DNA from: a virus
Reading direction: 5' to 3' (one strand)
DNA: 59,110 bases
Virus record (IMG/VR): IMGVR_UViG_3300033551_000005
Coordinates: 1 to 59,110 of that record
Of this stretch, positions 18,505 to 47,359 are shown piece after piece (position 1 is the first letter of the stretch; each line of letters begins with the position of its first letter). The notes below the pieces were generated by a model. That model made no database searches, was not told the DNA's origin, and saw only the letters and a list, made by a program, of their open reading frames with translations. The position numbers and the translations under genes were made by a program.

Positions 18505-18516
18505 GTACGGAGCGTA
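18505..18516 (-). promoter_or_regulatory. Leaderless-type promoter of the endolysin gene
   Basis: Minus-strand TACGCT (18511-18516) followed by exactly six bases and ATG. No Shine-Dalgarno sequence is present. The same geometry occurs before 24795, 39244, 46349 and 47347. Confidence 0.5.
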
Positions 18517-18534
18517 ACGCGCGACCCTCGTCTT

Positions 18535-18600
18535 GCGTGTTCTTCTCTCATCACCGTATGCTCGCGCCGCAGGCGCGCATGCGTGATGAAGAAAGAACAG
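18535..18600. repeat. Dispersed palindrome family, member 1 (degenerate)
   Basis: Arms related to GTTCTTnnTTCATCAC and GTGATGAAGAAAGAAC enclose a different GC-rich core (GCGCGCC-like) with imperfect pairing. It lies between the DUF932 gene and the endolysin gene. It shares its outer arms with members at 25960, 28472, 48660 and 57609. Confidence 0.7.
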
Positions 18601-18603
18601 AGA

Positions 18604-18629
18604 AGAGCCCCGGCCGGTTGGCCGGGGCT
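18604..18629 (-). terminator. Terminator of the DUF932 gene
   Basis: GAGCCCCGGCC and GGCCGGGGCTC arms around a GGTT-type loop, 15 bases after the stop at 18644. It is distinct from the adjoining palindrome. Confidence 0.75.
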
Positions 18630-18643
18630 CTCTGCTGTGTGGA

Positions 18644-19663
18644 TCAGGCGCTGACGGCGACGTCCTGCGCGATGCGGCTGGCCGACTGGATCAGCCGGTC
18701 ACGGTCCAGGAACGACCGGCGGAACAGGTTCTCCGCGCGGTCCTGGTCGCTCTTGCCGCGCGTCGAGCGGAACCACTGGCTGTACTCGACGGCGCCCTGG
18801 ACCAGGCCGTACGCCGTGTTCTTCACGCCCTCCGAGGTGGCCGAGGCGAAGATCGTGCGCAGGTCGCCCCGGGCGGTCTCGATGTTCGTCATGACGCGCT
18901 TGCTGACGATCGCGGCCTCCGGCGCCGGGACGAACCGCTCGATGAACTCCTCGCGCTGCGCGTCGGTGATGCGCATGCTGATCAGGTGCTCGTTGAAGAC
19001 CTTCCACTCCTCGACGGACACGCGCCACATGGCGAGCGCCTGCTTGGCCTCCTCGATGCGGTCCTTCACGTTCTTCGTGTGCCGGAACACAATCTCGGTG
19101 CCGTGCGCCTTGGCGCTCATGTCGGCCATCCGGCTGGTGTTCGCGCAGACGATGCGGGTGTTGATCGCCTGGCCCCGGAACGAGCCGCCGCCGTCGTGGT
19201 TGTTCTGGAGGGCGAAGTACTGGAGGGTCGCGCCGTTCGGGTCGCCCCGCAGCACCAGCGGCTCCGCGAGCCGGAGCAGCAGCCACACCTGACGGCCGCC
19301 GCGCAGCGAGCCGCCCGTCTCGTACCGGATGTCGCCGCCGAGGCCGGTCACGGCCTCCGCGATGTCGTACATCTCCTCGTTCGTGACGATGCCGAGCGTG
19401 TCGTTCGTGACGCCGATGTGCCCGCCGTTGTCGCTGCGGACGACCTCCTGCTGGCCCTCGATGGGCTCGTAGGTCACGGTCGGCATGCCGTCCGGGCCGA
19501 AGCCGGGCACCTGCCGGAAGACCGGCGCCGTGATGGGCTCCCACGGGTGGGCGATGGCCTTCGCCTCCTCGCGGCTCGGGTACTCGGTGAGCACCTTGCC
19601 GAGGCCGTGCCACGGCATCTGGCGGACAGAGAACATGTCGTCGGTGCTGGTGATCTCGTGCAT
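18644..19663 (-). CDS. DUF932 (phage/plasmid-like) protein
   Basis: A 339-residue protein starting MHEITSTDDMFSVRQMPWHG. The opening with PWHGLG, the GIVTNEEMYDIAEAV motif, the RQVWLLLRLAEP strand, NNHDGGGSFRGQAINTRIVC and FRHTKNVKDRIEEAK are typical of the DUF932 / TIGR03299 family found in phages and plasmids. The function is not established; proximity to DNA metabolism genes is usual. It is a single-gene unit behind a full repeated promoter and is closed by the terminator at 18604. Length is normal for the family. Confidence 0.88.
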   Translation of the reverse strand: MHEITSTDDMFSVRQMPWHGLGKVLTEYPSREEAKAIAHPWEPITAPVFRQVPGFGPDGMPTVTYEPIEGQQEVVRSDNGGHIGVTNDTLGIVTNEEMYDIAEAVTGLGGDIRYETGGSLRGGRQVWLLLRLAEPLVLRGDPNGATLQYFALQNNHDGGGSFRGQAINTRIVCANTSRMADMSAKAHGTEIVFRHTKNVKDRIEEAKQALAMWRVSVEEWKVFNEHLISMRITDAQREEFIERFVPAPEAAIVSKRVMTNIETARGDLRTIFASATSEGVKNTAYGLVQGAVEYSQWFRSTRGKSDQDRAENLFRRSFLDRDRLIQSASRIAQDVAVSA

Positions 19664-19690
19664 GGGGTGCTCCCTAGGTTGGTGTCGCGT

Positions 19691-19735
19691 TGTGCTGACG
19701 TACGTAACATTAGCATCATCTGTAAGGCAGGGCAA
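19691..19735 (-). promoter_or_regulatory. Repeated phage promoter and leader, copy 5
   Basis: Minus-strand -35 TTGCCC (19730-19735), 17-bp spacer, TGCTAATGTTACGTACGTCA then GCACA. The upstream GTTTCGTGTTGCCC also precedes the copy at 22179, so similarity extends beyond the -35. It drives the DUF932 gene. Confidence 0.8.
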
Positions 19736-19741
19736 CACGAA

Positions 19742-19772
19742 ACGGCCCGGACCTCCAAAGAAGTCCGGGCCG
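19742..19772 (-). terminator. Terminator with U-rich tail
   Basis: CGGCCCGGACTT and GTCCGGGCCG arms followed on the minus strand by TTTCGTGTTG. It sits five bases after the stop at 19777 and runs straight into the -35 of promoter copy 5. Confidence 0.8.
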
Positions 19773-19776
19773 TCTG

Positions 19777-20226
19777 TCACGCGACCAACTCCACCAGGTG
19801 CTTGGCGCCCCAAGAGAAGTGCGCCCAGCCGTGGTTCGGGAGCGGCTTGCTGGTCGCGAAGTTCTTGTACGTGAGCCCCGTCGCGAGCCGGGCGCAGACG
19901 AGGATTTCCTCGACGTCCTTCGGCTCCCGGTCTTCCCGGCCGGGCCGGGGCACCCCGACGCGCAGCCCAGAGCCGGTCGCCGCGCTCGGCTCGATCGAGA
20001 ACGTCACGCGGTACCCGTCGATCCGGTCGTAGTCGACGACGCCGACGTTGCCCTCTCGCTCGATGATGACCCACGAGACCTGCACGAACCCGCCACCCCG
20101 CAGCCGGGGCCGGGCGTAGACGTACACCCGGAACCCGTCTGCGAGCAGCGCCCGAACCGGCTCCTTCATCGCGCCGTCGAGCGGGAAGTCTTCGAGCGCC
20201 ACCCAGGGCGCCTCGGGCGCGTTCAC
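19777..20226 (-). CDS. Hypothetical 149-residue protein
   Basis: From GTG 20226 (VNAPEAPWVALEDFPLDG), overlapping the preceding stop by GTGA. It is a strand-rich protein (FRVYVYARPRLRGGGFVQVS, YRVTFSIEPSAATGSGLRVG) ending in a helix with WAHFSWGAKHLVELVA. I do not recognise a family. It is third in a coupled run (21157 to 19777) ending at a strong terminator. Confidence 0.65.
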   Translation of the reverse strand: MNAPEAPWVALEDFPLDGAMKEPVRALLADGFRVYVYARPRLRGGGFVQVSWVIIEREGNVGVVDYDRIDGYRVTFSIEPSAATGSGLRVGVPRPGREDREPKDVEEILVCARLATGLTYKNFATSKPLPNHGWAHFSWGAKHLVELVA

Positions 20227-20819
20227 CGGCCACCGTCGATCAGGTCGAGCAGGGCCTCCAGGAGGTCGGCCGTCACGGTGCTGACGTCCCCCGCGCTGAT
20301 CCGGCTGCGCTCCAGGATGACCTGACGGTCGATGTGCACGTCCCGCAGCCGCTCGTTGATGCGGCCCTCGCGGTCCCGTCGGATGGACTTCTCGGCGCGA
20401 GCCGCCGACAGCCTCTCCTCCTCGGCCTGCTGGTGCGCGGCCATACGCTGCTCCGCGTCCTCCCAGGTCGTGACGAGGGTGCGCGTCTCCGCCGTCGTCG
20501 GCTCGCCCCAGGCGCCCGTGTTGCCGTTGGCGCCGGGCAGCCACTGCCGGATCAGGACCAGGCTCCCCTTGCCCCGGCCCCGGTCGTACGGCATCGGCCG
20601 CCTGCGCCGGTACCGCTTCGAGACCTCGACCGTCCCGCCGCCGGGAAGTCGCACGACCTCCGCCTCCTCCGTGTCGACGTCGGCCCGGTAGCGAGCCACG
20701 TTCTCCCACGGCTCGGCGTCGAGCACCTGCACCCGGCGGGCGTGGCCCCGGTACTTGTCCCAGTCCCGCCAGGTTGCGAGCGCGTAGTCCGCGCCGACCT
20801 CGATCTTGCTGCGCTGCAT
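20223..20819 (-). CDS. Hypothetical 198-residue basic, helical protein
   Basis: Starts MQRSKIEVGADYALATWRDW. A first, strand-rich part (GHARRVQVLDAEPWENVARY) with an Arg run (SKRYRRRRPMPYDRGRGKGS) is followed by a long charged helix (EDAEQRMAAHQQAEEERLSA) and a C-terminal LLEALLDLIDGGR. The start overlaps the previous stop. It may bind nucleic acid given the basic middle. Function unknown. Confidence 0.6.
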   Translation of the reverse strand: MQRSKIEVGADYALATWRDWDKYRGHARRVQVLDAEPWENVARYRADVDTEEAEVVRLPGGGTVEVSKRYRRRRPMPYDRGRGKGSLVLIRQWLPGANGNTGAWGEPTTAETRTLVTTWEDAEQRMAAHQQAEEERLSAARAEKSIRRDREGRINERLRDVHIDRQVILERSRISAGDVSTVTADLLEALLDLIDGGR

Positions 20820-21157
20820 CAGTTCTTCTCCTCGATCTTGGGCGCCAGCATGGCGTCCCACTTCTCGCCTACGGTGTCGACGATGGCCCAAGCCGCGTCG
20901 ATGAAGTTGTCGCCCCGGAAGTGCTGCTCCAGGTCGTTGTCGGCGCTGGTGACGAACACCGGGACGCCGTCGTACTTCTCGGCCTCGGGGTCCCGCGACA
21001 GCAGGGTGGTGATGAGCAGCGTCTGCCCGACGCCCTCGCCGTCGACCACCAGCACGAGGCCGGTGAAGAACCCGATGCCGCTGCTGCCGTTGCGCTGGTA
21101 CGAGGCGGCCAGCACCTCGTAGGCGCCGTACGGTCCCCTCGCGATCTTGTTGCTCAT
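20819..21157 (-). CDS. Hypothetical 112-residue protein
   Basis: Starts MSNKIARGPYGAYEVLAASY with a GGAGGAGCAGC site upstream. It has a hydrophobic beta core (SGIGFFTGLVLVVDGEGVGQ, TLLITTLL) then an acidic helix-rich end (EQHFRGDNFIDAAWAIVDTV). First gene of a three-gene coupled run. No family recognised. Confidence 0.6.
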   Translation of the reverse strand: MSNKIARGPYGAYEVLAASYQRNGSSGIGFFTGLVLVVDGEGVGQTLLITTLLSRDPEAEKYDGVPVFVTSADNDLEQHFRGDNFIDAAWAIVDTVGEKWDAMLAPKIEEKN

Positions 21158-21219
21158 GCTGCTCCTCCTCGGGGAGCCGGGGCGGGTCGCCGTGCAGCGG
21201 CCCGCCGGGGTGGGGTTGC

Positions 21220-21798
21220 TCAGGCCTCGTCCATCCGGGTGCGGATGGTGACCCGGCCGGGGTGGACGTTGAACCGCGCCGTCGAGCGCTTGCTGTGCCC
21301 GAGCAGGTCCAGCGTCAGGGTGCCGTCGGTCGGCTCGACGTACCGCACGCGCCACCGGGGCGCCTCGCCCTTCGCCAGGAACGGCTTGGTGTACGAGACG
21401 ACGTCGCCCTGGCGGGGCGTGGTGCGCAGGCCCTCGCGGAGGATCTTGCCCTGCTCAGCGAGCGGCGGGACCGGCTCGGTGGAGCGGGTCAGGCCGCAGT
21501 CCATGCACGCCTCGATGGTCGCGAGGCCGGGGACCGGCAGCACCTCTTCGTGGTCGCACACGTCCTGGGCGATCTTCGCGACGTGCAGGTCGCCGCCCGC
21601 CTTCTTGACGAGGGCCATCAGGCCGAAGCCGTGGCGCAGGTTGTGGTCGCCCTTGGTGCCGATGCGGCCGTCCGTCATGCGGAACGCCTCGTGCGCCGTG
21701 ACGAACTGCGGGACGCCCTCGCGGCGGAGCCGGGTGTAGGCGCTGGTGAGCAGGTCGGTGGTGACGTGACGGCGGCGGCGGGTGGTGTTGCGGGACAT
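21220..21798 (-). CDS. Hypothetical 192-residue DNA-binding-like protein
   Basis: Starts MSRNTTRRRRHVTTDLLTSA, a basic N-terminus, then a winged-helix-like stretch (TSAYTRLRREGVPQFVTAHE). The middle has a CDHEEVLPVPGLATIEACMD segment that could hold zinc with CG. The C-terminal third is strand-rich (RWRVRYVEPTDGTLTLDLLG). It follows AGGAGGACACC and a degenerate copy of the promoter/leader. DNA binding is inferred from charge and pattern only. Confidence 0.6.
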   Translation of the reverse strand: MSRNTTRRRRHVTTDLLTSAYTRLRREGVPQFVTAHEAFRMTDGRIGTKGDHNLRHGFGLMALVKKAGGDLHVAKIAQDVCDHEEVLPVPGLATIEACMDCGLTRSTEPVPPLAEQGKILREGLRTTPRQGDVVSYTKPFLAKGEAPRWRVRYVEPTDGTLTLDLLGHSKRSTARFNVHPGRVTIRTRMDEA

Positions 21799-21825
21799 GG
21801 TGTCCTCCTCGATTGGGTGGTGCGT

Positions 21826-21850
21826 TGTGCTGACGTGCCCCGGCTAGGTC
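21826..21850 (-). promoter_or_regulatory. Degenerate copy of the repeated leader
   Basis: Minus-strand CACGTCAGCACAACGCACCA keeps the CGTCAGCACAAC leader, but the TGCTAATGT -10 is replaced by GC-rich sequence. The leader seems conserved even where the promoter box is not. Confidence 0.5.
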
Positions 21851-21882
21851 GTGAACCTGCGCCGCCTACGCGGTGCCGGGGC
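21836..21882 (-). terminator. Imperfect hairpin after the winged-helix gene
   Basis: GCCCCGGCAC and GGCCGGGGC-like arms around a 25-base interior, immediately after the stop at 21889 and overlapping the degenerate promoter region. Modest support. Confidence 0.45.
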
Positions 21883-21888
21883 GGCCGG

Positions 21889-22152
21889 TCAGTTGACCGG
21901 GATGATCGGGAACGCCGCGCCCTTCTCGGTGAGCCGGTAGGCGTCGTGGCCCGGCTTGTCGCCGCACCACTCGATGAGGCCGTAGTTCCGCATCAGGGTG
22001 TGAGCGTGGGTCGCGGCCGACTGGTGCATCCGGGCCACCCGGGCGATGTTCTTCCGCGAGATGTAGCCGGGGTTCATCAGGCGGGCCGCCGCGAACGCCT
22101 TGGCGAGGCTCGGGGTGATCTTGTGACCCTGGATGCGAAGCGTGGTAGCCAT
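21889..22152 (-). CDS. Small winged-helix DNA-binding protein
   Basis: An 87-residue protein (MATTLRIQGHKITPSLAKAF). The helices ISRKNIARVARMHQSAATHA and THAHTLMRNYGLIEW followed by a DAYRLTEKGAAF wing fit a MarR/PadR-like winged helix. It has its own full promoter copy and an AGGAGGTCACG site, so it is probably expressed early. It is a candidate regulator of the phage promoters. No closer family recognised. Confidence 0.7.
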   Translation of the reverse strand: MATTLRIQGHKITPSLAKAFAAARLMNPGYISRKNIARVARMHQSAATHAHTLMRNYGLIEWCGDKPGHDAYRLTEKGAAFPIIPVN

Positions 22153-22178
22153 CGTGACCTCCTGGTTTGGTGCTCTGT

Positions 22179-22225
22179 TGTGCTGACATACGTAACATTA
22201 GCACACCAGCAAGGAGGGGCAACAC
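22179..22225 (-). promoter_or_regulatory. Repeated phage promoter and leader, copy 6
   Basis: Minus-strand TTGCCC, 16-bp spacer, TGCTAATGTTACGTATGTCA then GCACA. The region around -35 (GTTTCGTGTTGCCC) matches copy 5. It drives the winged-helix gene at 22152. Confidence 0.8.
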
Positions 22226-22244
22226 GAAACATGTTACGGTTGTG

Positions 22245-22559
22245 TTACGGCTCCGGCAGGTAGCCCAGCGTCTCGGCCACCGAGAGCACGACGGCGCCGA
22301 CGCCGCCCGCCGCCCGCAGGTCCGCGAGGCGCTTCTGCTGGCGGATCGTCGCCCGGCCGTACGCGTGCTCGGTGCTCTCACCGAGCCGCTGCTTCTTCAC
22401 CTCGAAGCCGTAGATCCGGCCGTCGATGACGACGACGAGGTCGGGCAGCCCGGCGGCCTGGTACGGCCCGCCGTGGATCTTGGTGATCATCGCGCTCGGG
22501 TGCCGCTTCTTGATCGCCCGCGTGATCTGCCCCACGAGCAGGGTCTCCGGCTGTGCCAC
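22245..22559 (-). CDS. VRR-NUC domain nuclease
   Basis: A 104-residue protein from GTG 22559 with an AGGAGG site. The layout is that of stand-alone phage VRR-NUC nucleases: ITRAIKKRHPSAMITKIHGG, the catalytic strand GLPDLVVVIDGRIYGFEVKK (D and E-x-K), then QQKRLADLRAAGGVGAVV. These PD-(D/E)XK enzymes cut branched or structured DNA. It is the last gene of the recombination block, after the two tRNAs, and fits a Holliday-junction or debranching role. Confidence 0.9.
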   Translation of the reverse strand: MAQPETLLVGQITRAIKKRHPSAMITKIHGGPYQAAGLPDLVVVIDGRIYGFEVKKQRLGESTEHAYGRATIRQQKRLADLRAAGGVGAVVLSVAETLGYLPEP

Positions 22560-22581
22560 GAGTCCTCCTGGATACGAGAGT

Positions 22582-22612
22582 GGCCCGCCCCGGAGTGAGT
22601 GCGGGGCGGGCC
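22582..22612 (-). terminator. Hairpin between the tRNA genes and the VRR-NUC gene
   Basis: Perfect GGCCCGCCCCG / CGGGGCGGGCC stem around a nine-base loop. It may end the tRNA transcript or help 3' processing; the nuclease gene follows closely. Confidence 0.65.
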
Positions 22613-22643
22613 GTGCGGCAGCCGGTGAAGGGCGACCGTCGCG

Positions 22644-22714
22644 AGGCGCTGGCGGGAGTTGAACCCGCTTGTCCGGCTTTGCAGGCCGTTCCCTGGCCGT
22701 TCGGGCACAGCGCC
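22644..22714 (-). tRNA. tRNA-Cys (anticodon GCA)
   Basis: Seven-base-pair acceptor stem (GGCGCTG with CAGCGCC), D arm GCCCGAACGGCCAGGG, anticodon loop CTGCAAA giving GCA, and T arm GCGGGTTCAACTCCCGC. CCA is not encoded. It lies four bases after tRNA-Asn, so both are probably cut from one precursor. Cys and Asn codons are rare in such GC-rich phages, yet many of the phage's small zinc proteins are Cys-rich. Confidence 0.92.
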
Positions 22715-22718
22715 TTGG

Positions 22719-22790
22719 CTCCCCACGCAGGACTTGAACCTGCAATACCTGGGTAACAACCAGGCGTGTTGCCAATTACACCAGCGGGGA
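22719..22790 (-). tRNA. tRNA-Asn (anticodon GTT)
   Basis: Acceptor stem TCCCCGC with GTGGGGA, discriminator G, D arm containing GGTGTAATTGGCAAC, anticodon stem CCTGG/CCAGG with loop TTGTTAC giving GTT, and T arm GCAGGTTCAAGTCCTGC. CCA is not encoded. All arms pair normally, so the gene looks intact. Confidence 0.93.
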
Positions 22791-22798
22791 AAGCGCGT

Positions 22799-22916
22799 CC
22801 CCGGGAGCGCGGCCGTCCGGCCGAACCCCCGGGAACACTTCCCGCCGCTCATCGCGGCGGGCGGGGTGCCTGGTGTCGGTGAAGTCACCAGGCGGGGTGC
22901 TGAGCCGGGGAGCACC
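22799..22916 (-). ncRNA. Array of four hairpins upstream of the tRNA pair
   Basis: This 418-base gap between genes holds, besides the tRNAs, four consecutive stems read on the minus strand: 22896-22916 (GGTGCT/AGCACC), 22868-22893 (GCCTGGTG/CACCAGGC, perfect), 22841-22861 (CCCGCCGC/GCGGCGGG) and 22799-22833 (CCCGGG arms with an inner GGCCG stem). They follow the ssDNA-binding gene and precede tRNA-Asn. They could be a terminator plus processing signals, or one structured RNA. No coding frame with a ribosome site is seen. Confidence 0.4.
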
Positions 22917-22977
22917 ACAGAGGTTGAGTGTCAGCACAACCACCCGCTCTACCCAGCCCAGCCGTCATGACCCTACC

Positions 22978-23613
22978 TCAGAGGTTGATGTCCGCCAGAG
23001 ACAGGGTCTCCGGCTCCTCCTTGGCGGGGACGGTGGTGGGCGCCGGTGCGGCGGCCGTGCGCACACGGTCCGCCACGGTGGCCTCGCCGCCGGTCGTGAA
23101 CTCCTTCACGACCTCCGCCGGGGCGTCCTCGACGACGGCGGCCTGCACCGGCTCGGCGACGGCCTCGGGCACGTCCTCGACCATCTGCTCCAGCACCGGC
23201 ACGTCGGCCGGGGCGTCCTCGGCCTCCGGCGCGATGTAGCGAGCGTAGCCGTCGATCTGCGACGTGCCGGGGCGGCCCCGGTACGGCTCGGCGTGGCTCG
23301 TGTCGATGTAGACCTTGCGGTTCTTCCACGCCTCGGGGTTGATGCTGAGGCGCTTCTTCGGCGTGGGCATGCCCAGGCCGTTGAGGAAGCCGACGATCTT
23401 GAAGAGCGCCTTCGGCGTGATGGCGAGCCGGTCGATGATGACCTTGCCGCTCTCCGGCCCCTCGATGATGCGGAGGAAGACGGTGAACATGTCGTTCTGC
23501 GACTTGCTCTTGCCGAACTCGTAGTCCTCGACGATCGCGAGGTAGCGCGCGTCCGCGACCGTGTCCGAGATGTTCGGGCGGTAGCCGGACAGGTCCAGGG
23601 TGTACTGACCCAT
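22978..23613 (-). CDS. Putative single-stranded DNA-binding protein
   Basis: A 211-residue protein (MGQYTLDLSGYRPN). The first 120 residues look like an OB-type DNA-binding domain (ARYLAIVEDYEFGKSKSQND, FTVFLRIIEGPESGKVIIDR, KIVGFLNGLG). A long acidic, Ala/Pro/Val-rich linker follows, and the protein ends EEPETLSLADINL, an acidic-hydrophobic tip like the partner-binding tail of SSBs. It is directly downstream of the Sak4-like ATPase gene. Sak4 recombinases and SSB-like proteins commonly work together in phage recombination. The assignment is by layout and context. Confidence 0.65.
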   Translation of the reverse strand: MGQYTLDLSGYRPNISDTVADARYLAIVEDYEFGKSKSQNDMFTVFLRIIEGPESGKVIIDRLAITPKALFKIVGFLNGLGMPTPKKRLSINPEAWKNRKVYIDTSHAEPYRGRPGTSQIDGYARYIAPEAEDAPADVPVLEQMVEDVPEAVAEPVQAAVVEDAPAEVVKEFTTGGEATVADRVRTAAAPAPTTVPAKEEPETLSLADINL

Positions 23614-23652
23614 GTGGGTTTCTCTTTTCTGTGCTGTTTTGTTGCGGTTTGG

Positions 23653-24495: not shown

Positions 24496-24535
24496 TCTGT
24501 CTCCAGTTGTCCGGGTCTGTCACACTGACTTGACC

Positions 24536-24552
24536 TTACGTACGTAATCATA
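24536..24552 (-). promoter_or_regulatory. Promoter with TTACGTACGTAA palindrome before the Sak4-like gene
   Basis: Minus-strand -10 TATGAT in TGTATGATTACG is followed at once by the perfect 12-bp palindrome TTACGTACGTAA. The same palindrome recurs at 28542 before the helicase gene and is embedded in the repeated promoters. It is a candidate operator. Confidence 0.6.
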
Positions 24553-24558
24553 CACGCC

Positions 24559-24795
24559 CTACGAGCGGACGCGAACCGGGGAGTTCTTCTCCTCCTCGGG
24601 CCGCCCCAGAGCCGCCCGGCAGGCGGCGTCCTTGGCGACCAGCAGCGCCTGCATGGCGGCGTCCTTCTGCGGGCCGTCGGGCAGGTACTCGTCCCACCAC
24701 CGCTGCGTCGCCTCGGCGTCGAGCGCCGCGTTGGCGATCCGGGCGTCCTGCGTGCGCTGGGACGTGTCGAAGAACTGCGTCGTGTGGTGAGCCAT
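24559..24795 (-). CDS. Hypothetical 78-residue helical protein
   Basis: Starts MAHHTTQFFDTSQRTQDA and is largely helical and charged (ARIANAALDAEATQRWWDEY, AAMQALLVAKDAACRAALGR). It lies between the two recombination genes. The upstream gene's stop TAG forms part of TAGGGT, six bases before the ATG, so a leaderless start is possible; no strong ribosome site is seen. Function unknown. Confidence 0.6.
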   Translation of the reverse strand: MAHHTTQFFDTSQRTQDARIANAALDAEATQRWWDEYLPDGPQKDAAMQALLVAKDAACRAALGRPEEEKNSPVRVRS

Positions 24796-24804
24796 GCCGG
24801 GACC

Positions 24805-25938
24805 CTACGCCTTCACGGCGAGGCCGTAGCCCGAGGGCTCCAGCCGCTGGTTCGTGCGCATCTCGTCGAGGCAGAGCATCACGAAGTCGCAGCCCTTGCA
24901 GCCGTTGCGCGAGAGGTTCCGCGCGATCGGCCCCAGGCTCGGGTCGTCGAACCGGCGGCGAGCCTCGGCCTGCCCCTCGGCCGTGGCGACGGCCTCCTGG
25001 AGGTGGCCCCGGATGATGCGCGGGTTCACCGGGTCGAGCGTGCGCCGGTTCCACTTGTCGCGCTCCGACGGCGTGCTCAACTTCTCGATGACCTTCGGGT
25101 CGCGCTCGTAGAAGCCCGCGCCGCTGCCGTCCTTCTTGAGCCCCGGGAACGGCACCGGCTCCTCGGTGAACGCGAGGTAGGCCGCGACGTCGTAGTCCGT
25201 GACGGACGCCGACAACTTGCCTGCCTTGGTGACGGCGGGCTGCGCGGCGGGCTTCGAGCGGGCGCGGTCGTAGCCGACGGCCCCCACGTTGATGCCCAAC
25301 TGCACCGACACGCCCCAGGCGTAGAGGTGCAACTGCGAGTCGAGCAGGTCGTCCAGCGACTCGGCCGCCGCGATGGTGCCGTTCGTCTTGTGGTCGCGGA
25401 CGACGATCAGGCCCAGGCGCTTGTCGCGGTAGACCTCGTCGACTCGGCCCCGGAGCACGACGCCGGAGTCCGCGATCGGCACCTCCACGAACACCTCGAC
25501 CGCGATCACCTCCTCGTTCTCGCGGGACTCCGCGCCCCACGCCTCCTCCCACCGAGCGTCCATCTCGACGAGGTGCGGCACGAGCGGGGCGCCGGTCTTC
25601 TCGATCCACTGCTCCTGCCGGGTGAGGTTCAGGCTGTTCCAGAACGACTCGGCGGCGGCGAAGACATGCGCCTTCTGGAGGTGCGGGCCGACCGACAGTT
25701 CCGGCCCCATGTCGCCCGTGCTGATCTTGTCGGGCAGGTACAGCGGCGCGGCCTCCTGCGACCGGCTGCGGGCGATGGCGTCGGCGGCGCGCAGCGCGTG
25801 CCACCACGAGCCGAGTTCGCGAGTGATGAGCGGCTGCACCCCGGCGGGCCGGAGGCGCCGCAGGGTGGAGAACTCGAACTTCTTGGGGCACGCTCGGTAG
25901 GTGCCCAGGCTGCTGGGCGAGACGGTGATCGGGGGCAT
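24805..25938 (-). CDS. Cas4/RecB-like PD-(D/E)XK exonuclease with Fe-S cluster
   Basis: A 377-residue nuclease. It opens with SPSSLGTYRACPKKFEFSTL (the first cluster Cys) and closes with NGCKGCDFVMLC, giving the four Cys of a Cas4/AddB-type 4Fe-4S nuclease. The catalytic core shows VVLRGRVDEVYRD, LIVVRDHKTNG (D-x-K) and the RecB-family QxxxY motif in SQLHLYAWG. It likely resects or trims DNA ends to feed the Sak4-like recombinase. It is the first gene of the minus-strand recombination block and is divergent from the replication genes. Size is typical of phage RecB-like nucleases; no helicase domain is attached. Confidence 0.88.
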   Translation of the reverse strand: MPPITVSPSSLGTYRACPKKFEFSTLRRLRPAGVQPLITRELGSWWHALRAADAIARSRSQEAAPLYLPDKISTGDMGPELSVGPHLQKAHVFAAAESFWNSLNLTRQEQWIEKTGAPLVPHLVEMDARWEEAWGAESRENEEVIAVEVFVEVPIADSGVVLRGRVDEVYRDKRLGLIVVRDHKTNGTIAAAESLDDLLDSQLHLYAWGVSVQLGINVGAVGYDRARSKPAAQPAVTKAGKLSASVTDYDVAAYLAFTEEPVPFPGLKKDGSGAGFYERDPKVIEKLSTPSERDKWNRRTLDPVNPRIIRGHLQEAVATAEGQAEARRRFDDPSLGPIARNLSRNGCKGCDFVMLCLDEMRTNQRLEPSGYGLAVKA

Positions 25939-25959
25939 GGGGCTCCTCGGTTCGGGGTC

Positions 25960-26018
25960 GTTCTTCGTTCATCACTCACCCACCCCTTACGGGGAGGGGT
26001 GAGTGATGAACGAAGAAC
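25960..26018. repeat. Dispersed palindrome family, member 2
   Basis: Arms GTTCTTCGTTCATCACTCAC and GTGAGTGATGAACGAAGAAC pair perfectly over 22 bases, with CCACCCC/GGGGAGGGG core and TTAC loop. It lies in the divergent region between the minus-strand recombination genes and the plus-strand replication genes. It is followed by CACGACTAGGTGA, also seen after member 4. No U-tract follows on either strand. Confidence 0.85.
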
Positions 26019-26095
26019 ACGACTAGGTGAGATGGCGGTCTGACCTGCGGGGTAGGGTGCGTGAACCGCTCCACCCTGCGGGCCGTTGCCCCGGG

Positions 26096-26124
26096 TTGCT
26101 GGGGCGTGTGTTTACTAATGTATC
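26096..26124 (+). promoter_or_regulatory. Promoter of the replication genes
   Basis: TTGCTG (26096-26101), 17-bp spacer, and extended -10 TGTATCAT ending at 26124. This is the best textbook promoter of the plus-strand block. Transcription would start about 26131, giving a leader with its own small reading frame before the primase-polymerase gene. Confidence 0.75.
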
Positions 26125-26165
26125 ATGTGCTCGGCCCGGCAATGGGCCTCGGTGAAAGGAACCAC

Positions 26166-28462: not shown

Positions 28463-28471
28463 TTTGCCCGT

Positions 28472-28553: not shown

Positions 28554-28573
28554 CAGCCAACCGAAGGAACCCC

Positions 28574-30202: not shown

Positions 30203-30210
30203 CCGCCGGG

Positions 30211-38277: not shown

Positions 38278-38285
38278 GGGGAATT

Positions 38286-38760: not shown

Positions 38761-38770
38761 GCCGAGCACG

Positions 38771-38813: not shown

Positions 38814-38839
38814 TGATGGCGGAGATGCCGTGTCCGATG

Positions 38840-39244
38840 CTACGCCCCGTCCGGCGGGGGTGCTTGCCGGGACACGCTCGTGGCGATGTGGACGTCGAGC
38901 CGCTGCGACAGGGTGCGCACGTCGGTGCGCACGCCCTCCGTCTCCTGGCGAGACGCTGAGCGGTCGTCCTGCACGGTCTTCGCGAGCGCGGTCTGCGTGG
39001 CCGCGAGCGTCTGCACGGCCTCGGTCATCGCCTCGCCCTGGAGCCGGATGGCCGTCACCTCGTCGCGCAGGTTGGGGTACTCGGTGTTGATGTGGCTGTT
39101 CTCCGTCTGGCCGAGCACGCGATCGAGGCGCGGCTTGATCGCCCGCCACAGCAGGAACAGGCCGAGCAACAGCAGCGCGCTGCCGATCGAGGTAATCAGG
39201 CCAGTTACGGAGTCCGGTTCCATGATCTTTTCCAGTAGGTCCAT
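38840..39244 (-). CDS. Membrane protein with coiled coil at the end of the tail operon
   Basis: A 134-residue protein (MDLLEKIMEPDSVTGLITSI). One hydrophobic segment (GSALLLLGLFLLWRAIKPRL) is followed by a long helix/coiled coil (VTAIRLQGEAMTEAVQTLAA, ASRQETEGVRTDVRTLSQRL). The layout resembles phage holin-associated or spanin-like membrane proteins, but the lysis genes are elsewhere. The promoter box TAGCCT lies exactly six bases before ATG and no ribosome site is present, so a leaderless mRNA is likely. Confidence 0.65.
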   Translation of the reverse strand: MDLLEKIMEPDSVTGLITSIGSALLLLGLFLLWRAIKPRLDRVLGQTENSHINTEYPNLRDEVTAIRLQGEAMTEAVQTLAATQTALAKTVQDDRSASRQETEGVRTDVRTLSQRLDVHIATSVSRQAPPPDGA

Positions 39245-39256
39245 GGTCTGAGGCTA
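39245..39256 (-). promoter_or_regulatory. Leaderless-type promoter of the membrane protein gene
   Basis: Minus-strand TAGCCT (39251-39256), six bases, then ATG at 39244. Same geometry as the endolysin, tail-chaperone and connector genes. Confidence 0.5.
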
Positions 39257-39297
39257 AGCGCTTACCGGCGGGCGAATCCGCCGGTCAGCGGGTGAAA

Positions 39298-40997: not shown

Positions 40998-43087
40998 CAG
41001 CCGCTCACCACCGCGTTCTCCCAGACGACGTTGACGAAGCCGGTGTCCGTCGGGTCGCCGGTCTGCACCGTGACGTCGTGCACGCCCGGCTCCAGCGGCG
41101 AGGAGAAGTCGCCCTCGATGTTGGCCGTCACATCCTCGAAGCCGTCCGAGGCTCGGCCGTACTTGGTGTCCACGGTGATGACCGTACCGATGGGGATGTC
41201 CTCCGTGTAGGTGAACTGGTGGTTGCCGTACGTGACGAGGATCGGCGCCGTCATCTCCGGGAACAGGGTGATTTCGGGGTAGACGCACAGCGAGCCCACC
41301 ACCTCCACCGTGAGCGGGTCGGCCGCCGTCGGGCCGACACTCATCCAGGGCAGCGCAAGGTCGAGCACCTGGTCAGTGAGCGCCGTGCCGGTCCACACGA
41401 GGCGCGGCTGCGCGAACGCCGCGCCGACGGGCGCCACGTTCGTCTGCGAGAAGCGCTGCCACGCCGCGCCGGGCGACATCGACGATCCGTTGTTCACGGA
41501 CAGCGGCGCGCCGCCGCCGTCGTACCACTGCCAGTCCAAGCGCGAGGCCGGGCCGCCGCCGGGCGCCTTCCGAGCCCACCACGCCACCGTGTAGGTCGTC
41601 CCGGCGACGACCGGGATCGCTGACAGCCCCGACCCGGACAGCACCATCAGCATGGGCGACGTCGTGTTCGGCGCGATGATCACGCGCCGGAAGTACGGAC
41701 CTCCGTCGGGACCGGACGGACCGCCGGACTGCGGGTACGAGTCGTCCACCGTGGCGCCGTTGAGCGTCATGCTCCGGCTGGACAGGTCCGGGTCGGGGAT
41801 GAGGTTCTGCTCGGTGGCGTCGATGGACTGGACGTGCTCCGTGGTCCACAGCGCGCCGGGGATCGTGTCGCCCAGCACGAGGCGAGCGTCCGCCGCGTCG
41901 AACCGCAGCAGCACGGTGGCCCCGCCGATGTCCGAGCGGTTCCACGTCACCTCTGCGACGCGCGGTCGGCCGTGCACGAAGTACGGCCCCTGGTAGACGC
42001 GCTCCTCCTCGGTGGCGTCGGGGTCGTGGCAGTCGGTGAACAGCACGAGCGTGGCGCCGGTGCAGTTGCGGGACCACTCCTGCGTGAGCCGGGAGACCTT
42101 CTTGCGGGCGCTCATCTTCTCGGCCACGAACGGCTGGAGGTACGCGGGCGAGACCACGGTCCACGGGTTGCCCTGCGCGTCCACGAACGCCGTCGTGTAG
42201 GGCGGCTGGTCGAAGATCGGGTTGGCGACGATCGTCCCGTCGATGCCGCTGCGGATGCGCACCTCAAACACGCGGCCGGGGAACCGCTCCGAGCCGCCCG
42301 AGTTGTACGCCCCGACGGCTACCTCCGCCGTCGAGTTGTAGATCGAGGTGACGCCCGCCTGCACCACGGTGGCGCCGAGTTGCGTCCAGGTGACGCCGTC
42401 GGGACTGGTGTAGAAAAGGATGCTCCGGCCACCCGCGCCGTTGTCCACGTCGATGATGTACCGCAGCCAGATGCCCTCGCCGTCGGCCACCACCGGGATT
42501 GCCGTCGAGGACGCAGACAGCGTCGTCGTGCCGTCCGGCGACCAGAAGAACCCCAGCGTGCCGGTGGTGTTGACGCGCGTCGTCCAGGCGCGGTCCTGCG
42601 TGGGCGAGGTGATCCACTTGCTCACCGGCGCCGCCGAGCCCGACGGCGTCCAGTCATCCATCGCGAGGTAGACGGACACGTCGAGGTCGCCCGTGATGTC
42701 GAGCGCCGGAGCGTCCGGGGTGCGGGCGCGCCCAGGGCTCACGCCGTCGAGCACGAGCGCAGCCTGCACCTCGGGCGCGTTGTTGCACCCCGGGCAGTCG
42801 TCGTTCTTCACCTCCACCTGGAGCGTGATCTGCCGGGGCTCGTAGTAGTCCGCGAACTGCACGACGCCGTCGCGCTGCGCGAACGCGACGTCACCGTTGC
42901 GCACCGGAGGCACGCCGAGCCCGTCCGGCGGGAGGTTCAGGAAGCCGAGCGGGACCGTCGGCAGGTAGGGCTCCACCGCGTCCCCGCCGGACAGGCTGAT
43001 GCCCTGCTCCTGCGCCTGGAGGTCGCCGGTCGTGTCCTTGCCGTCCTGGTACAGGGCGATGCCCCAGGCCCCGCTGTTGCCGCTCAT
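40997..43087 (-). CDS. Dit-like minor tail protein with two lectin-type modules
   Basis: A 696-residue protein. The first 100 residues (MSGNSGAWGIALYQDGKDTT, ADYYEPRQITLQVEVKNDDC) look like a distal tail hub. An inserted module (about 120-290; DITGDLDVSVYLAMDDWTPS, GFFWSPDGTTT, FYTSPDGVTWTQLG, FPGRVFEVRIRSGIDG) has the jelly-roll pattern of laminin-G/ConA-like lectins. After a second hub part a CBM-like module (about 425-580; LIPDPDLSSRSMTLNG, GTTYTVAWWARKAPGGG, AAWQRFSQTNVAP) follows. Both could bind host wall glycans. ATGA overlaps join it to the tape measure gene and the next tail gene. Confidence 0.75.
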   Translation of the reverse strand: MSGNSGAWGIALYQDGKDTTGDLQAQEQGISLSGGDAVEPYLPTVPLGFLNLPPDGLGVPPVRNGDVAFAQRDGVVQFADYYEPRQITLQVEVKNDDCPGCNNAPEVQAALVLDGVSPGRARTPDAPALDITGDLDVSVYLAMDDWTPSGSAAPVSKWITSPTQDRAWTTRVNTTGTLGFFWSPDGTTTLSASSTAIPVVADGEGIWLRYIIDVDNGAGGRSILFYTSPDGVTWTQLGATVVQAGVTSIYNSTAEVAVGAYNSGGSERFPGRVFEVRIRSGIDGTIVANPIFDQPPYTTAFVDAQGNPWTVVSPAYLQPFVAEKMSARKKVSRLTQEWSRNCTGATLVLFTDCHDPDATEEERVYQGPYFVHGRPRVAEVTWNRSDIGGATVLLRFDAADARLVLGDTIPGALWTTEHVQSIDATEQNLIPDPDLSSRSMTLNGATVDDSYPQSGGPSGPDGGPYFRRVIIAPNTTSPMLMVLSGSGLSAIPVVAGTTYTVAWWARKAPGGGPASRLDWQWYDGGGAPLSVNNGSSMSPGAAWQRFSQTNVAPVGAAFAQPRLVWTGTALTDQVLDLALPWMSVGPTAADPLTVEVVGSLCVYPEITLFPEMTAPILVTYGNHQFTYTEDIPIGTVITVDTKYGRASDGFEDVTANIEGDFSSPLEPGVHDVTVQTGDPTDTGFVNVVWENAVVSG

Positions 43088-45606
43088 CGAGCCACCCCGC
43101 CGATCCTCTCGGTGCGCGACTGCGTCGCGTAACGGACGTTCCAGTTGATTTCGGCCAAGCGGCCACCCGACGTCGTCGGGCCAAAGAACTGCTGCGTGAC
43201 CGCCACGTCGCCTCCCCGGTTCGTCACCTGGGCCGGGGCCACGTTCGACCCCGTAGCCTGCGCTGTGCGCCGCAGAGGCGCGAGCGCAGCGCCGCCGGGG
43301 GCCACGGGCGCCAGAGCCTTCTCCATCGCCCTGGCGGGCACACGCACGTTCTGCGTGATGCCGTCCCCGACCATCTCTGCGATCTTCCGGCCGGACTGCT
43401 CCGGGTTGCCGAGGCCGGACAGCGGCCCCTCCTTGGCGGGCGAGAACGGCAGGTAGGCGCGGATCGTGCCCGCGAGGTTGCCCGCCGCCGAGGCGACTCG
43501 GCCGATCATGGCGTTGATGCCGTCGATGAGCCCCTGCACCACGTTCCGGCCCGCCTGGTACAGCAGTCCACCCAGGTTGCCGAGCGCGTTCCGGATGCGG
43601 CCGGGCAGCCCCGAGAAGAACCCGACCACCCGCCCGACGCCGCGTCCGGCCGAGGTGGCGAGGCGGCTGAACCCGTTGCTGAACAGCGTGCTCGCCGTCG
43701 ACCACAGGGCGCGCACGAACGCGAGCGCGCGGTTCCGCAGGTTGAGGAACCCGTTCACCACCCGGGTCACCCACGAGAGCACGCCGGTGATGACCCGGAC
43801 CTGGAACTGCGTGAAGTTCTGCACGACGCCGTTCCACCAGTTGCGGACGAGGGTGAGCACCTGCTTCCCGCCGTTGTTGAAGTAGTTCTTGATGGTGTTC
43901 CACAGGAACTCCACGACGCTGCCGAGAATGTCCACGACGCCCTCGGCAATCTGCACGAGGCCGGACCATGCCTTGTCCCAATCACCGGTAAAGACACCGG
44001 TGAGGAAGGTAATCAGGCCGCCGAGAATGTCGAAGATTCCGCCCACTACGTCCACAATCAGGTTGATTGCATTGACGACCTGAGCGCCGAATACCGTGAG
44101 GAACACGTCAAGGATCGGCATGAGCACCGGGATCAGGCCGGAGATAGCCGGGTACAGGTTCTCCATGAACAGCCCGGCGATCCGGCTGATCGCCCCGCCG
44201 AGCGCCGTCAGGATCGTGCTCACGAGCGGCGCGAGCGCGCCCACGAGGCCGACCACCAACTGGATGATGACGCCGATCACGGGCGCGAGCGCGGTCAGCG
44301 CCCCGCCGACGGCCTGCCCGAGCACGGCGGCGAGCGGGAGAAGGATGTTACGGAGCGCTGCAATCTGGGGCAGCAGTGCGCCGACGACGGCGAAGATGCC
44401 CTGGAAGATGGGCACGATGACGCCGCCCAACTGCCGGATCGCCTCGCCGCTCTGCTGGATCAGGCCAAAGAACGCCTGGAGGCCCTGCTGCGCCTCGGCC
44501 GTCTGGAGGAAGGCGGCCAGTTGCCCGGTCGCCTGCTCCAGGATGTTCAGCAGCGTGGCGCCCTGCTCGGCCCCGGCACCGAACACGGTGACGAGGATCG
44601 AGCCGACGTTGCCGATGATGCCCACGAGCGTGCCCAGGATGGCGTTGCTGCCCCGCAGGAAGGCGTTCAACTGCCCGCTCTGCGCGACGCCCTCGGCCCA
44701 CCCCGCGAACGCCTCGGCGCCGGTGCTGATGGCGCGAGCCATCTCGGTGGCCGGGCCGATGCTGCCGCCGAACAGCGCGAAGAACCCACGCGCGATCGAG
44801 CCGACGGCGGGCAGGATGGCGGCGAGCGTGTCGTTGAGCCCGCCCAGGATCGCGTCGATCTGGCGGACACGGGTGCCCTCGGTGGCCCACGCGGTGAACC
44901 CCCGGATCGTGCCGTTGAGGATGCCCGCCGTCTCCGTCAGCGAGGACTGGAGCACGGGCAGGAACGTCTCCCCGATGCGCGAGATGTCCTCGCCCACGCC
45001 CTGGAAGAACCGACCCTGGATCGAGCGCTGCACGCCCTCCCACGCGGGGCCGAGGGCGGTCACGGCGGAGACTACCTGGCGAGCCGAGGGCGCCAGGTTC
45101 TTCATCGCGGCGTCGAGTTCCTTCTGCGTCTCGGCCGAGACGGCGCCGGTCGAGGCCAGTTCCTCCTGCGCCTTGCTCTGCGCATCGAACGCCTCGGTCA
45201 GGCCCTGGCTCGCGATCTGCGTCGTCGCGGCGGCGAGCCCGAGCGAGGCGAAGATCGTGCCCGCCGAGAGCGCGCCGCCTGCTGCCTGCCCGAGCGCGCC
45301 GCCGACGGCGACCGCCCCGGCGACGATGCCGCCGAGCAGCGCGGGGATCGGGACGATCGCCCCGATGAGCCCCGCCCCCGCGCCGCCGACCTTCGCCAGC
45401 GAGAACTCCAACTGCCCGAACGTGCTGATGGCGTCCTCGTTGCGGGAGGCGCCCCGGCCGATGCCCTTCGACAGGCTCGTGCCGATCTTGTCGCCCTCCT
45501 GCTCGGCGTTGCGCGCCGCCCGGCGGGTGCCGCGAACGAGGTCGCGGTCCAGGTCGTCGAGGTCGGCACCCACCTCGATTACTGCCTCACCGAGAGACTG
45601 CGCCAC
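43084..45606 (-). CDS. Tape measure protein
   Basis: An 840-residue protein from GTG 45606 (VAQSLGEAVIEVGADLDDLD). It has a helical start, a long Ala/Gly/Ile-rich middle with repeated hydrophobic stretches (GLIGAIVPIPALLGGIVAGA, LIQQSGEAIRQLGGVIVPIF) and a C-terminal RIRNALGNLGGLLYQAGRNV with LVQGLIDGIN-type motifs shared by tape measures. It sets tail length: by the usual 1.5 Angstrom per residue the tail would be roughly 125 nm. It follows the frameshifted chaperones, as in most siphoviruses. An AT-richer patch near 43.9-44.1 kb is present. Confidence 0.93.
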   Translation of the reverse strand: MAQSLGEAVIEVGADLDDLDRDLVRGTRRAARNAEQEGDKIGTSLSKGIGRGASRNEDAISTFGQLEFSLAKVGGAGAGLIGAIVPIPALLGGIVAGAVAVGGALGQAAGGALSAGTIFASLGLAAATTQIASQGLTEAFDAQSKAQEELASTGAVSAETQKELDAAMKNLAPSARQVVSAVTALGPAWEGVQRSIQGRFFQGVGEDISRIGETFLPVLQSSLTETAGILNGTIRGFTAWATEGTRVRQIDAILGGLNDTLAAILPAVGSIARGFFALFGGSIGPATEMARAISTGAEAFAGWAEGVAQSGQLNAFLRGSNAILGTLVGIIGNVGSILVTVFGAGAEQGATLLNILEQATGQLAAFLQTAEAQQGLQAFFGLIQQSGEAIRQLGGVIVPIFQGIFAVVGALLPQIAALRNILLPLAAVLGQAVGGALTALAPVIGVIIQLVVGLVGALAPLVSTILTALGGAISRIAGLFMENLYPAISGLIPVLMPILDVFLTVFGAQVVNAINLIVDVVGGIFDILGGLITFLTGVFTGDWDKAWSGLVQIAEGVVDILGSVVEFLWNTIKNYFNNGGKQVLTLVRNWWNGVVQNFTQFQVRVITGVLSWVTRVVNGFLNLRNRALAFVRALWSTASTLFSNGFSRLATSAGRGVGRVVGFFSGLPGRIRNALGNLGGLLYQAGRNVVQGLIDGINAMIGRVASAAGNLAGTIRAYLPFSPAKEGPLSGLGNPEQSGRKIAEMVGDGITQNVRVPARAMEKALAPVAPGGAALAPLRRTAQATGSNVAPAQVTNRGGDVAVTQQFFGPTTSGGRLAEINWNVRYATQSRTERIGGVAR

Positions 45607-45612
45607 CCCGGA

Positions 45613-46349
45613 TCACCTTCCTCGTGCTGGTCGGCCGCGCGATCCGGGCGTGCCGTTGCTGTTCGCCAGGGTACCGCGCGGGCGCGGCGTGGCCCTGGCC
45701 TTGGTGGTGCCGTCGGGTGCCGGTGGCTTGTCCGGCTGCACCTGCGACTTGAACGCCTGGAAGGCGCTCGTCTCGTTGGCCGCTGACCACGGGGATTCCG
45801 GCGGGGGCTCCTCGCCCTTCGGCGGCATCCACAGTTTGCGGTCAAACTTGGCTAAAGCGTTCTCATCCTGCGCATTCCGGGTGGCCCAGTAGTAGATCAG
45901 GTTGAGCAACCGGTCGATCGGGAGCGCAGCGATATCCGTGTTACGTGACGTTGCCCAACCCTCCAGGGTCGGCCAGTTCTCCGACGCCAGGTGGAGCAGC
46001 CGGAACGTCACGTAGTAGGGCGGCCCGCGACCTTCTTCTGGAGCCAGCCGAGGATGGCCTCCAGGTCGGGGACGTCGAAGTCGTCCGTCTTGTCCTTGAG
46101 CCGGTTGATGAAGTACTGGCTCGGCGGGTTCGGCTCGGAGCCCTCGTCCGCCACGTACTCGGCGTCCAGGCCCTCCTGGAGCCAGTCGAAGGTCTCCTTG
46201 GTGAGGGAGATGATCGTGCCGCCGCCGACGGTCTCCAGGAAGATCTGTGCCTGCTTGGGCGGGAAGAACTTGAACGGGGTGCCGTCCACCGTGAACTCGA
46301 TGGGCTTCTTGTTCCGGGTGCCGGTGGTGAATGCCATGGATGCGCTCAT
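45613..46349 (-). CDS. Tail assembly chaperone GT-type fusion (-1 frameshift product)
   Basis: The frame that opens in -1 register near 46040 reads EEGRGPPYYVTFRLLHLASE and runs to 45613, ending in a basic tail (SRGRPARGR). It has no start of its own, directly precedes the tape measure gene, and overlaps the end of the 113-residue chaperone. This is the standard arrangement of siphovirus tail chaperones G and GT, which coat the tape measure before the tube assembles. The shift should occur between about 46010 and 46045, but no perfect X-XXY-YYZ heptamer is visible. Length of the fusion is about 245 residues. Confidence 0.75.
46008..46349 (-). CDS. Tail assembly chaperone (G-type)
   Basis: A 113-residue protein (MSASMAFTTGTRNKKPIEFT) with VDGTPFKFFPPKQAQIFLET and a helical C-terminus (LEAILGWLQKKVAGRPTT). 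It resembles the upstream tail chaperone of actinophages and is followed by the -1 frame extension. No ribosome site is seen. A TACGCT box lies exactly six bases before the ATG, suggesting a leaderless mRNA. ATG 46349 is chosen over an upstream frame opening for that reason. Confidence 0.8.
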   Translation of the reverse strand: MSASMAFTTGTRNKKPIEFTVDGTPFKFFPPKQAQIFLETVGGGTIISLTKETFDWLQEGLDAEYVADEGSEPNPPSQYFINRLKDKTDDFDVPDLEAILGWLQKKVAGRPTT

Positions 46350-46361
46350 ACGCAGAGCGTA
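46350..46361 (-). promoter_or_regulatory. Leaderless-type promoter of the tail chaperone gene
   Basis: Minus-strand TACGCT (46356-46361) followed by CTGCGT and ATG. The sequence TACGCTCTGCGTATGAGC closely resembles TACGCTCCGTACATGAGC at the endolysin gene. Confidence 0.5.
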
Positions 46362-46379
46362 TCCGACGTACGTCACACG

Positions 46380-46781
46380 TCAGATTTTCAACTGCGTAAG
46401 CACTCGGCTCAGCCACCGAGTTGCCCGGATTCCGCGGACTCGCTTCGCGAAGACGAACGCCCCGCTCTTGCCTCGGAACCGCAGCACCTTGGCCGTGCGC
46501 GGGCCGTGGTCGCGGGTGCCGCGCTCCAGCCAGATGCCGGTGTCGAGGTTGGTGCCGATCTGGTAGTTCACCGGGCGCCGAGCCGAGGGGAAGCGCTGGT
46601 ACTGGACCGAGTTGCGGGTGCGCCCCGTGTCGACGCTGCCGTCCGTCGTGAGGTTCATCCGGGCGCGGTCGCGAGCCTGCCCGGCCACGCGCCGGGTGAA
46701 CGTGTCGACGTCGCCGCCGGGCGCGCTCAGGCGCGCGATGGCCGCGCGGTCGAGCGTGATACGCACGCGGGTGCGGCTCAC
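46380..46781 (-). CDS. Tail completion / HK97 gp10-like protein
   Basis: A 133-residue protein from GTG 46781 (VSRTRVRITLDRAAIARLSA). The RDRARMNLTTDGSVDTGRTR stretch, NYQIGTNLDTGIWLERGTRD and a basic end fit HK97 gp10-like minor tail/tail terminator proteins, which cap or complete the tail. GTGA overlap with the connector gene upstream. Position just before the chaperones matches the usual order. Confidence 0.78.
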   Translation of the reverse strand: MSRTRVRITLDRAAIARLSAPGGDVDTFTRRVAGQARDRARMNLTTDGSVDTGRTRNSVQYQRFPSARRPVNYQIGTNLDTGIWLERGTRDHGPRTAKVLRFRGKSGAFVFAKRVRGIRATRWLSRVLTQLKI

Positions 46782-47347
46782 GACGCCACCCAGACCGAGG
46801 GCTCGGGGAAGTCGTACGGCTCCACGGGCTCGGGGTGGTCCTCCGGGCAGGCGCACGAGCCCTGCGCGAAGTAGACGCGCCACTCCCCGCCCATGCAGCC
46901 GCCCTCGGTCTCCTTGGGCGTCCACTGCTGGATCATCTTCTTGCTGAGCGTGGGGTTCGGCTGCCAGCAGCAGCGGATCGCCGTCTCCAGCAGCGCGGCG
47001 TCACGGTTCATGGCGGCGGCGTCGGCGGTCATCTGCTCGCCGGTCGGGGCGTTCATGTCGTCGTCGATGGTGTGCGCACACCGGAGCACCGAGACGCCCA
47101 ACTGCACGGCCCAGAACAGCGGGTTGCAGTTGCTCGCCGTGGTGTCGATCGAGGGGAACGTGCGGCTCGGGAACCGCTCGATCACGCGGACGGCCAACTG
47201 CCCGGCGCAGCAGTCGTCGTCGGGCACGGTGGCCCCGGGGTTGAGGAACGCCTTGCCGACCGGGACACCGGCCTCCACGAGCGCGCCGTTCGCGCAGGTG
47301 AGCAGCGCCCACATCTCGGCGGTCAGGGTGTCAGGGATCACGGCCAT
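46778..47347 (-). CDS. Head-to-tail connector / tail-completion protein
   Basis: A 189-residue protein (MAVIPDTLTAEMWALLTCAN) rich in Cys, with DDDCCAGQLAVRVIERFPSR, FWAVQLGVSVLRCAH and WRVYFAQGSCACPEDHPEPV. Proteins of this size and Cys pattern sit between the connector and gp10-like genes in related actinophages. TACTCT lies exactly six bases before the ATG and there is no ribosome site, so it may be translated from a leaderless mRNA. It is the first gene after the inserted plus-strand island. Confidence 0.7.
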   Translation of the reverse strand: MAVIPDTLTAEMWALLTCANGALVEAGVPVGKAFLNPGATVPDDDCCAGQLAVRVIERFPSRTFPSIDTTASNCNPLFWAVQLGVSVLRCAHTIDDDMNAPTGEQMTADAAAMNRDAALLETAIRCCWQPNPTLSKKMIQQWTPKETEGGCMGGEWRVYFAQGSCACPEDHPEPVEPYDFPEPSVWVAS

Positions 47348-47359
47348 GCAGCCAGAGTA
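47348..47359 (-). promoter_or_regulatory. Leaderless-type promoter of the connector gene
   Basis: Minus-strand TACTCT (47354-47359), six bases (GGCTGC), then ATG. It restarts late transcription downstream of the plus-strand island and is divergent from the island's own promoter. Confidence 0.5.

Follow-up and report, generated by a model that had tools for sequence, protein, structure and literature searches.

Fixed TANNNT boxes before the start codons of tail, lysis, and other genes suggest a conserved class of leaderless starts in a tailed phage and its relatives

Leaderless (TA-led) genes, whose transcripts begin at the start codon, are common in Actinobacteria and are marked by a characteristic geometry (Zheng 2011, PMC3160421; Shell 2015, PMC4633059). 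In mycobacteria, the presence of ATG or GTG at the 5′ end is both a necessary and a sufficient condition for a leaderless start (PMC4633059). In a further study, translation of leaderless messages was roughly on a par with that of one leadered control (Nguyen 2020, PMC7148126). Among phages, an AR9 paper describes phage transcripts as often leaderless (PMC5312081), the transcript of lambda cI begins at the start codon (PMC9031893, PMC3160421), the same is predicted for gene 90 of Adephagia (PMC11373665), and three predicted leaderless promoters, PL1, PR2, and PL2, were described in Cluster O mycobacteriophages (PMC4351075). Here, we analysed the 59,110 bases of the IMG/VR virus record IMGVR_UViG_3300033551_000005 (positions 1 to 59,110, hereafter the window), in which six genes carry the −10-like box TANNNT exactly six bases before an ATG start codon and have no Shine-Dalgarno (SD) sequence.

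The six window genes share with the actinobacterial leaderless genes a TANNNT motif about 12 bases before the start, the missing SD sequence, and an ATG or GTG start codon, whereas the window cases are phage virion and lysis genes. The Cluster O promoters likewise belong to actinophages and are predicted to be SigA-like, with transcription beginning on the first start-codon base. Unlike in the window, two of them are divergent, about 5 kilobases (kb) from the left end, one promoter serves a gene for a putative DNA-binding protein, and the available portion of that paper describes no conserved link to the chaperone or tape measure genes (PMC4351075). Lambda cI and Adephagia gene 90, with transcripts of the kind proposed here, are regulatory or toxin-antitoxin genes and not virion assembly genes. 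Full-text literature searches, which left most subscription journals outside their coverage, brought up no description of chaperone or tape measure genes with leaderless starts.

With the offset defined as the number of bases between the TANNNT box and the start codon, the search for TANNNT-N6-ATG on both strands of the window returned exactly six sites (1950, 18504, 24795, 39244, 46349, and 47347), all of which are gene starts on the minus strand without an SD sequence, while TANNNT-N6-GTG was absent from either strand. The gene caller predicted 95 genes, and the 94 with at least 60 bases upstream were analysed, one start at the window edge being dropped. A box stood at offset 6 in five of these 94 called starts and at offsets 0–5 and 7–10 in none; the remaining site, 46349, was entered by hand, the caller having picked an inner ATG at 46337. 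TANNNT occurs 91 times across the two strands, or at 0.00077 per position, and the probability of finding 6/94 starts is 1.6e-10 at this genome-wide rate and 1.9e-5 at the rate upstream of genes (28/4888 positions), or 5e-4 after correction for 25 offsets. For the five caller-found starts alone, the upstream rate gives P = 2e-4, or 0.006 after the same correction. The first-pass annotation had reported the box and the missing SD sequence at 18504, 39244, 46349, 47347, and possibly 24795, and had judged a shared spacing at four or five loci unlikely to arise by chance. All five starts have precisely this geometry, and the argument from chance is strengthened by the sixth site, 1950, which had been overlooked.

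The layout is retained in close relatives. The 47347 protein has 77–81% identity to proteins in two IMG/VR records (G001 and G002), in which the pattern search returned eight TANNNT-N6-ATG sites. Frame reading identified seven of them as orthologous starts, and the remaining one, G002 56202+, looks like chance. One orthologue, the G002 chaperone with TAGTCT at offset 7, was missed by the pattern search. Altogether, the box was retained in 8/8 orthologues checked, with seven at offset 6 and one at offset 7, and the upstream columns outside the box were identical in 134/273 cells (49%) of the seven offset-6 pairs. The endolysin orthologue of G002 (57,632 bases) is divided between both ends of the record, which indicates that the record is circularly permuted or circular.

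All six boxes and their genes lie on the minus strand. The box TACGAT (1957..1962; TACGAT-cgtcac, and TACGCT-cgtcac in G002) precedes the putative leaderless start of a small hydrophobic protein gene between the terminase and portal genes (1579..1950; phrog_781, with a weak DUF1360 match below its cut-off), and a strong G+C-rich hairpin is predicted directly upstream of this box (1972..2002, position hand-counted). The putative leaderless endolysin gene (17584..18504; Amidase_2, PG_binding_1) follows TACGCT (18511..18516; TACGCT-ccgtac, and TACGAT-gcgtac in G002), and a terminator-like inverted repeat read from the sequence (18604..18631) separates its promoter from the upstream gene 18644–19663. 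A small gene 3′ of the exonuclease gene (24559..24795; phrog_1761 and phrog_5120, both of unknown function) is preceded by TAGGGT (24802..24807; TAGGGT-cccggc, and TAGCCT-gcctgg in G002). The gene with a hydrophobic segment at 38840..39244 (phrog_404, minor tail protein) has a putative leaderless start behind TAGCCT (39251..39256; TAGCCT-cagacc, and TAGCCT-cggaac in G002), with a predicted hairpin directly upstream of the box (39265..39284, also hand-counted). The putative leaderless tail assembly chaperone (46008..46349) was named from gene position and remote similarity and had no PHROG or Pfam match; its box is TACGCT (46356..46361; TACGCT-ctgcgt), which corresponds to TAGCCT at offset 6 in G001 and to the offset-7 box of G002. 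Finally, the leftward tail block opens with a connector-region gene with a putative leaderless start (46778..47347; phrog_810, unknown function), which follows TACTCT (47354..47359; TACTCT-ggctgc), with TACTCT in G002 and TACCCT in G001, both at offset 6.

To cover a wider family, 72 loci were fetched from a scan for the major head protein and combined with the window, three G002 pieces, and L018, a sequence with an endolysin homologue. In these 77 sequences, starts were picked blind to SD and box, and only those with at least 45 bases upstream were counted. Of the 1618 starts, 58 had the box at offset 6 and 27 at offset 7, while each other offset from 0 to 14 held 0–5. After removal of near-duplicates and of L019, which is on the same contig as L014–L016 (1589 starts reduced to 1425), 52 boxes remained at offset 6 and 25 at offset 7. 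An SD-like sequence was present at 9/77 boxed starts of this duplicate-free set, compared with 689/1348 other starts. The boxed starts comprised 60 ATG and 17 GTG codons and no other, which supports a leaderless reading since reporter work in mycobacteria showed that such starts require ATG or GTG (PMC4633059). Within the 77 boxes, T, A, and the final T were fixed and the inner letters nearly free, except that T never occupied the fifth position, and a faint excess of T appeared about 22 bases upstream of the box (28/77 pooled starts).

It is at tail-chaperone and tape-measure genes that the layout is concentrated. By protein cluster, with the names "chaperone-like" and "hydrophobic" assigned from gene position and sequence, the box was found before 16/38 tape measure genes, before 13/23, 3/3, and 2/2 members of the chaperone-like clusters, and before 11/29 small hydrophobic-protein and 5/51 neck genes. 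The clusters of 1950 and 47347 had 3/3 and 3/59 boxed members, two of the three being the same relative in each case. A further comparison, with duplicates, close relatives, and the window itself excluded, covered 32 loci in which a tape measure gene and genes immediately upstream of it had been called. A box at the tape measure start or in the stretch leading up to it was present in 22/32 loci, compared with 27/579 other genes, the first figure being counted per locus and the second per gene. One IMG/VR relative, L046, had unusually many boxes ahead of ATG codons (in 19 kb, 10 with offset 6 and another 10 with offset 7), and its boxed genes include small minus-strand genes.

The same two offsets stood out in named phages. 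Among the deposited starts of 12 phages, the box was found at offset 6 in 21/211 and at offset 7 in 8/211, with none at offsets 0–5 and 8–15, while the controls phiC31, lambda, and Giles had boxes at offsets 6–7 in 1/110 starts. These starts were copied by hand, leaving out genes cut by the end of a stretch, a frameshift product with a shared start, genes beginning at base 1, and one phiC31 row with a misfitting codon; SM23, whose gene annotation is on the opposite strand, and TPA2, to which our own caller was applied instead, were also excluded from this table. Our own caller, run on phiAsp2, Teamocil, TPA2, and MementoMori, placed 11/155 starts at offset 6 and 7/155 at offset 7, with none at other offsets from 0 to 16. 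The idea that the layout is a trait of all actinophages was rejected, as boxes at these two offsets were absent from phiC31 and numbered one in Giles (gene 4).

Where a chaperone-position gene could be named, it was boxed in 10/12 phages (phiAsp2, Teamocil, MementoMori, Leaf, which is doubtful, Kozie, MO526, FuzzBuster, Margaery, ClearAsMud, and BrazzalePHS) and unboxed in Ranunculus and TPA2; ClearAsMud, BrazzalePHS, and Ranunculus carry the chaperone annotation, and the others were named by position. Since several of the ten are close kin, they represent about five lineages besides that of the window. With hhalign, the window chaperone matched the Teamocil and MementoMori groups (probability 88% each) and, weakly, FuzzBuster and Leaf, with no match to phiAsp2. 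The phiAsp2 gene pas27 begins as TAAGCT-ggcagg-GTG (offset 6), and its record states "translation confirmed by N-terminal sequencing", which bears on the start codon and not on the transcript end. The annotated "ribosome binding site" of pas27 (AY576796.1, 16310–16313) sits on the TAAGCT box and is not SD-like.

Taken together, the fixed spacing of 6(–7) bases, the missing SD sequence, the box in all checked orthologues, and the family peak at offsets 6–7 favour the leaderless interpretation already proposed in the first-pass annotation. We consider it highly probable that the six genes have their own sigma-A-like promoters, which would produce leaderless mRNAs translated independently of SD from a 5′-terminal AUG. 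In such a scheme, the −10 box of a host-type promoter, ending six bases before the start codon, would be recognized by the housekeeping sigma factor of the host, RNA polymerase would start at the A of ATG or an adjacent base, and the ribosome would initiate on the 5′-terminal AUG. No phage sigma factor or transcription regulator was found among the 52/95 called genes scanned with PHROGs (30) or Pfam (30, eight in both). Expression of the chaperone, connector, lysin, and small late genes would depend on the promoter of each gene and little on upstream read-through, which should serve them poorly because a read-through message carries no SD sequence for them. The hairpins upstream of 1950, 18504, and 39244 may reduce read-through further, and the dose of each gene would then be set by its own promoter.

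Several findings weigh against this interpretation. A recognizable −35 hexamer, sought 16–19 bases upstream of the −10 box, is absent at 5/6 window sites, the exception being 46349 (CTGACG, 16-base spacer); four of six letters match there and two of six at the other sites, which is no better than shuffles. The window tape measure gene itself has an SD-like start at 45606, as judged by comparison with homologues, and the wider-family orthologues of 47347 are mostly unboxed. Conservation of the endolysin layout beyond the close relatives was rejected, as the L018 homologue (65% identical) has an SD sequence. The weakest case is 24795, where the exonuclease gene upstream has its stop codon in the TAG of the box, in both the window and G002. 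The label "late genes" given to the set earlier fits the endolysin, chaperone, connector, and phrog_404 genes by function and does not clearly fit 24795, and late status as such was derived from gene function.

A different account accepts the boxes as promoters and assigns most translation to longer late transcripts that read through from upstream, on which the ribosome would initiate through coupling or, independently of SD, at unstructured sites, with leaderless transcripts in a minor role. Read-through is possible in that most of the six genes follow same-strand genes at 9–139 bases; however, hairpins lie just upstream of several promoters, 47347 has no same-strand neighbour just upstream, and a fixed spacing of 6–7 bases would not be needed, which makes this account unlikely in our judgement. 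The poor −35 matches would also suit an operator at the start codon, bound by a phage regulator, in place of a −10 box. The inner letters of the box are nearly free, however, no flanking motif or symmetry is conserved, the same spacing recurs in many phages, and a TANNNT some 12 bases ahead of the start codon is a known mark of leaderless genes (PMC3160421), so that an operator is very improbable.

The pattern could also be a by-product of upstream stop codons (TAG or TAA) standing at constant spacing from the following start, as is the case for the 24795 box in the window and G002. Against this, the third box letter is not biased toward stops (A17 C25 G19 T16 of 77), 4/6 window boxes begin with TAC, and almost no boxes occur at neighbouring offsets. 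We give this explanation next to no credence; it was rejected on the third-letter counts and remains a caveat for 24795.

The proposed leaderless class differs from two leadered promoter classes in the window. Three late promoters have TANNNT followed, after 6–7 bases, by a conserved AGA and a shared leader with SD, namely TAGCCT of the major tail gene (51167..51172, minus strand), TACTCT of the major head gene (54345..54350, minus strand), and TACCCT of gene 55962–57527 (57586..57591, minus strand), and three counterparts exist in G002. Their spacing fits a +1 at the A of AGA, in agreement with transcription of the leaderless class beginning on the A of its ATG. The common 5′ leader AGA..TACGTNGCTGGCGC..GGGCCG (51110–51172, 54287–54350, and 57528–57591), which is kept in G002 before the SD of the major late genes, is possibly regulatory or stabilising. 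What looks like a second, leadered promoter class has the form TAATGT-TACGTA[TC]GTCAGCAC, with 37–43 bases from box to start, an SD sequence, and 10 pattern matches in the window. These start-associated repeats, TAATGT-TACGTA[TC]GTCAGCACAAC, lie at 3142−, 14517−, 15875−, 17304−, 19699−, 22187−, 30278+, 34665+, 47416+, and 55700−, on both strands and followed by SD and start, and the element is present in G002 and G001 as well. It resembles the SAS/ESAS of Cluster K mycobacteriophages (PMC11373665), reportedly a repeated motif before SD and start, and with its leader and SD it is distinct from the leaderless class. Across the window, TANNNT is about fourfold rarer than expected from base composition (91 sites versus about 400, an arithmetic estimate), and 63/91 sites fall in the 5,178 non-coding bases (9% of the DNA), as though there were avoidance of stray −10 boxes.

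The window has 70% guanine plus cytosine and belongs to a tailed phage, with portal, terminase, major head, major tail, tape measure, endolysin, primase, helicase, and DNA polymerase genes identified with PHROGs. Short DNA matches were obtained to Microbacterium, Tsukamurella, and Actinoplanes phages, while megablast of positions 15000–39999 against phages gave no match. An open frame on the minus strand (45607–46020) overlaps the chaperone end and continues beyond its stop in about the −1 register; it is conserved in G002 and is likely a programmed frameshift extension of the chaperone.

Leaderless initiation is already known from actinobacterial genes and some phage regulators. On the sequence evidence, the putative leaderless start class described here is real and conserved, with a mechanism already known in actinobacteria, and what looks new is the conservation of the layout at phage tail genes. 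The layout also aids start-codon annotation because boxed starts have no SD sequence, the pas27 record being an example. Test cases are offered by the Microbacterium phages Teamocil, MementoMori, Kozie, and ClearAsMud, which have laboratory hosts. If true, conservation of leaderless starts at virion-assembly genes would mean that phages place leaderless translation at particular points of the late programme.

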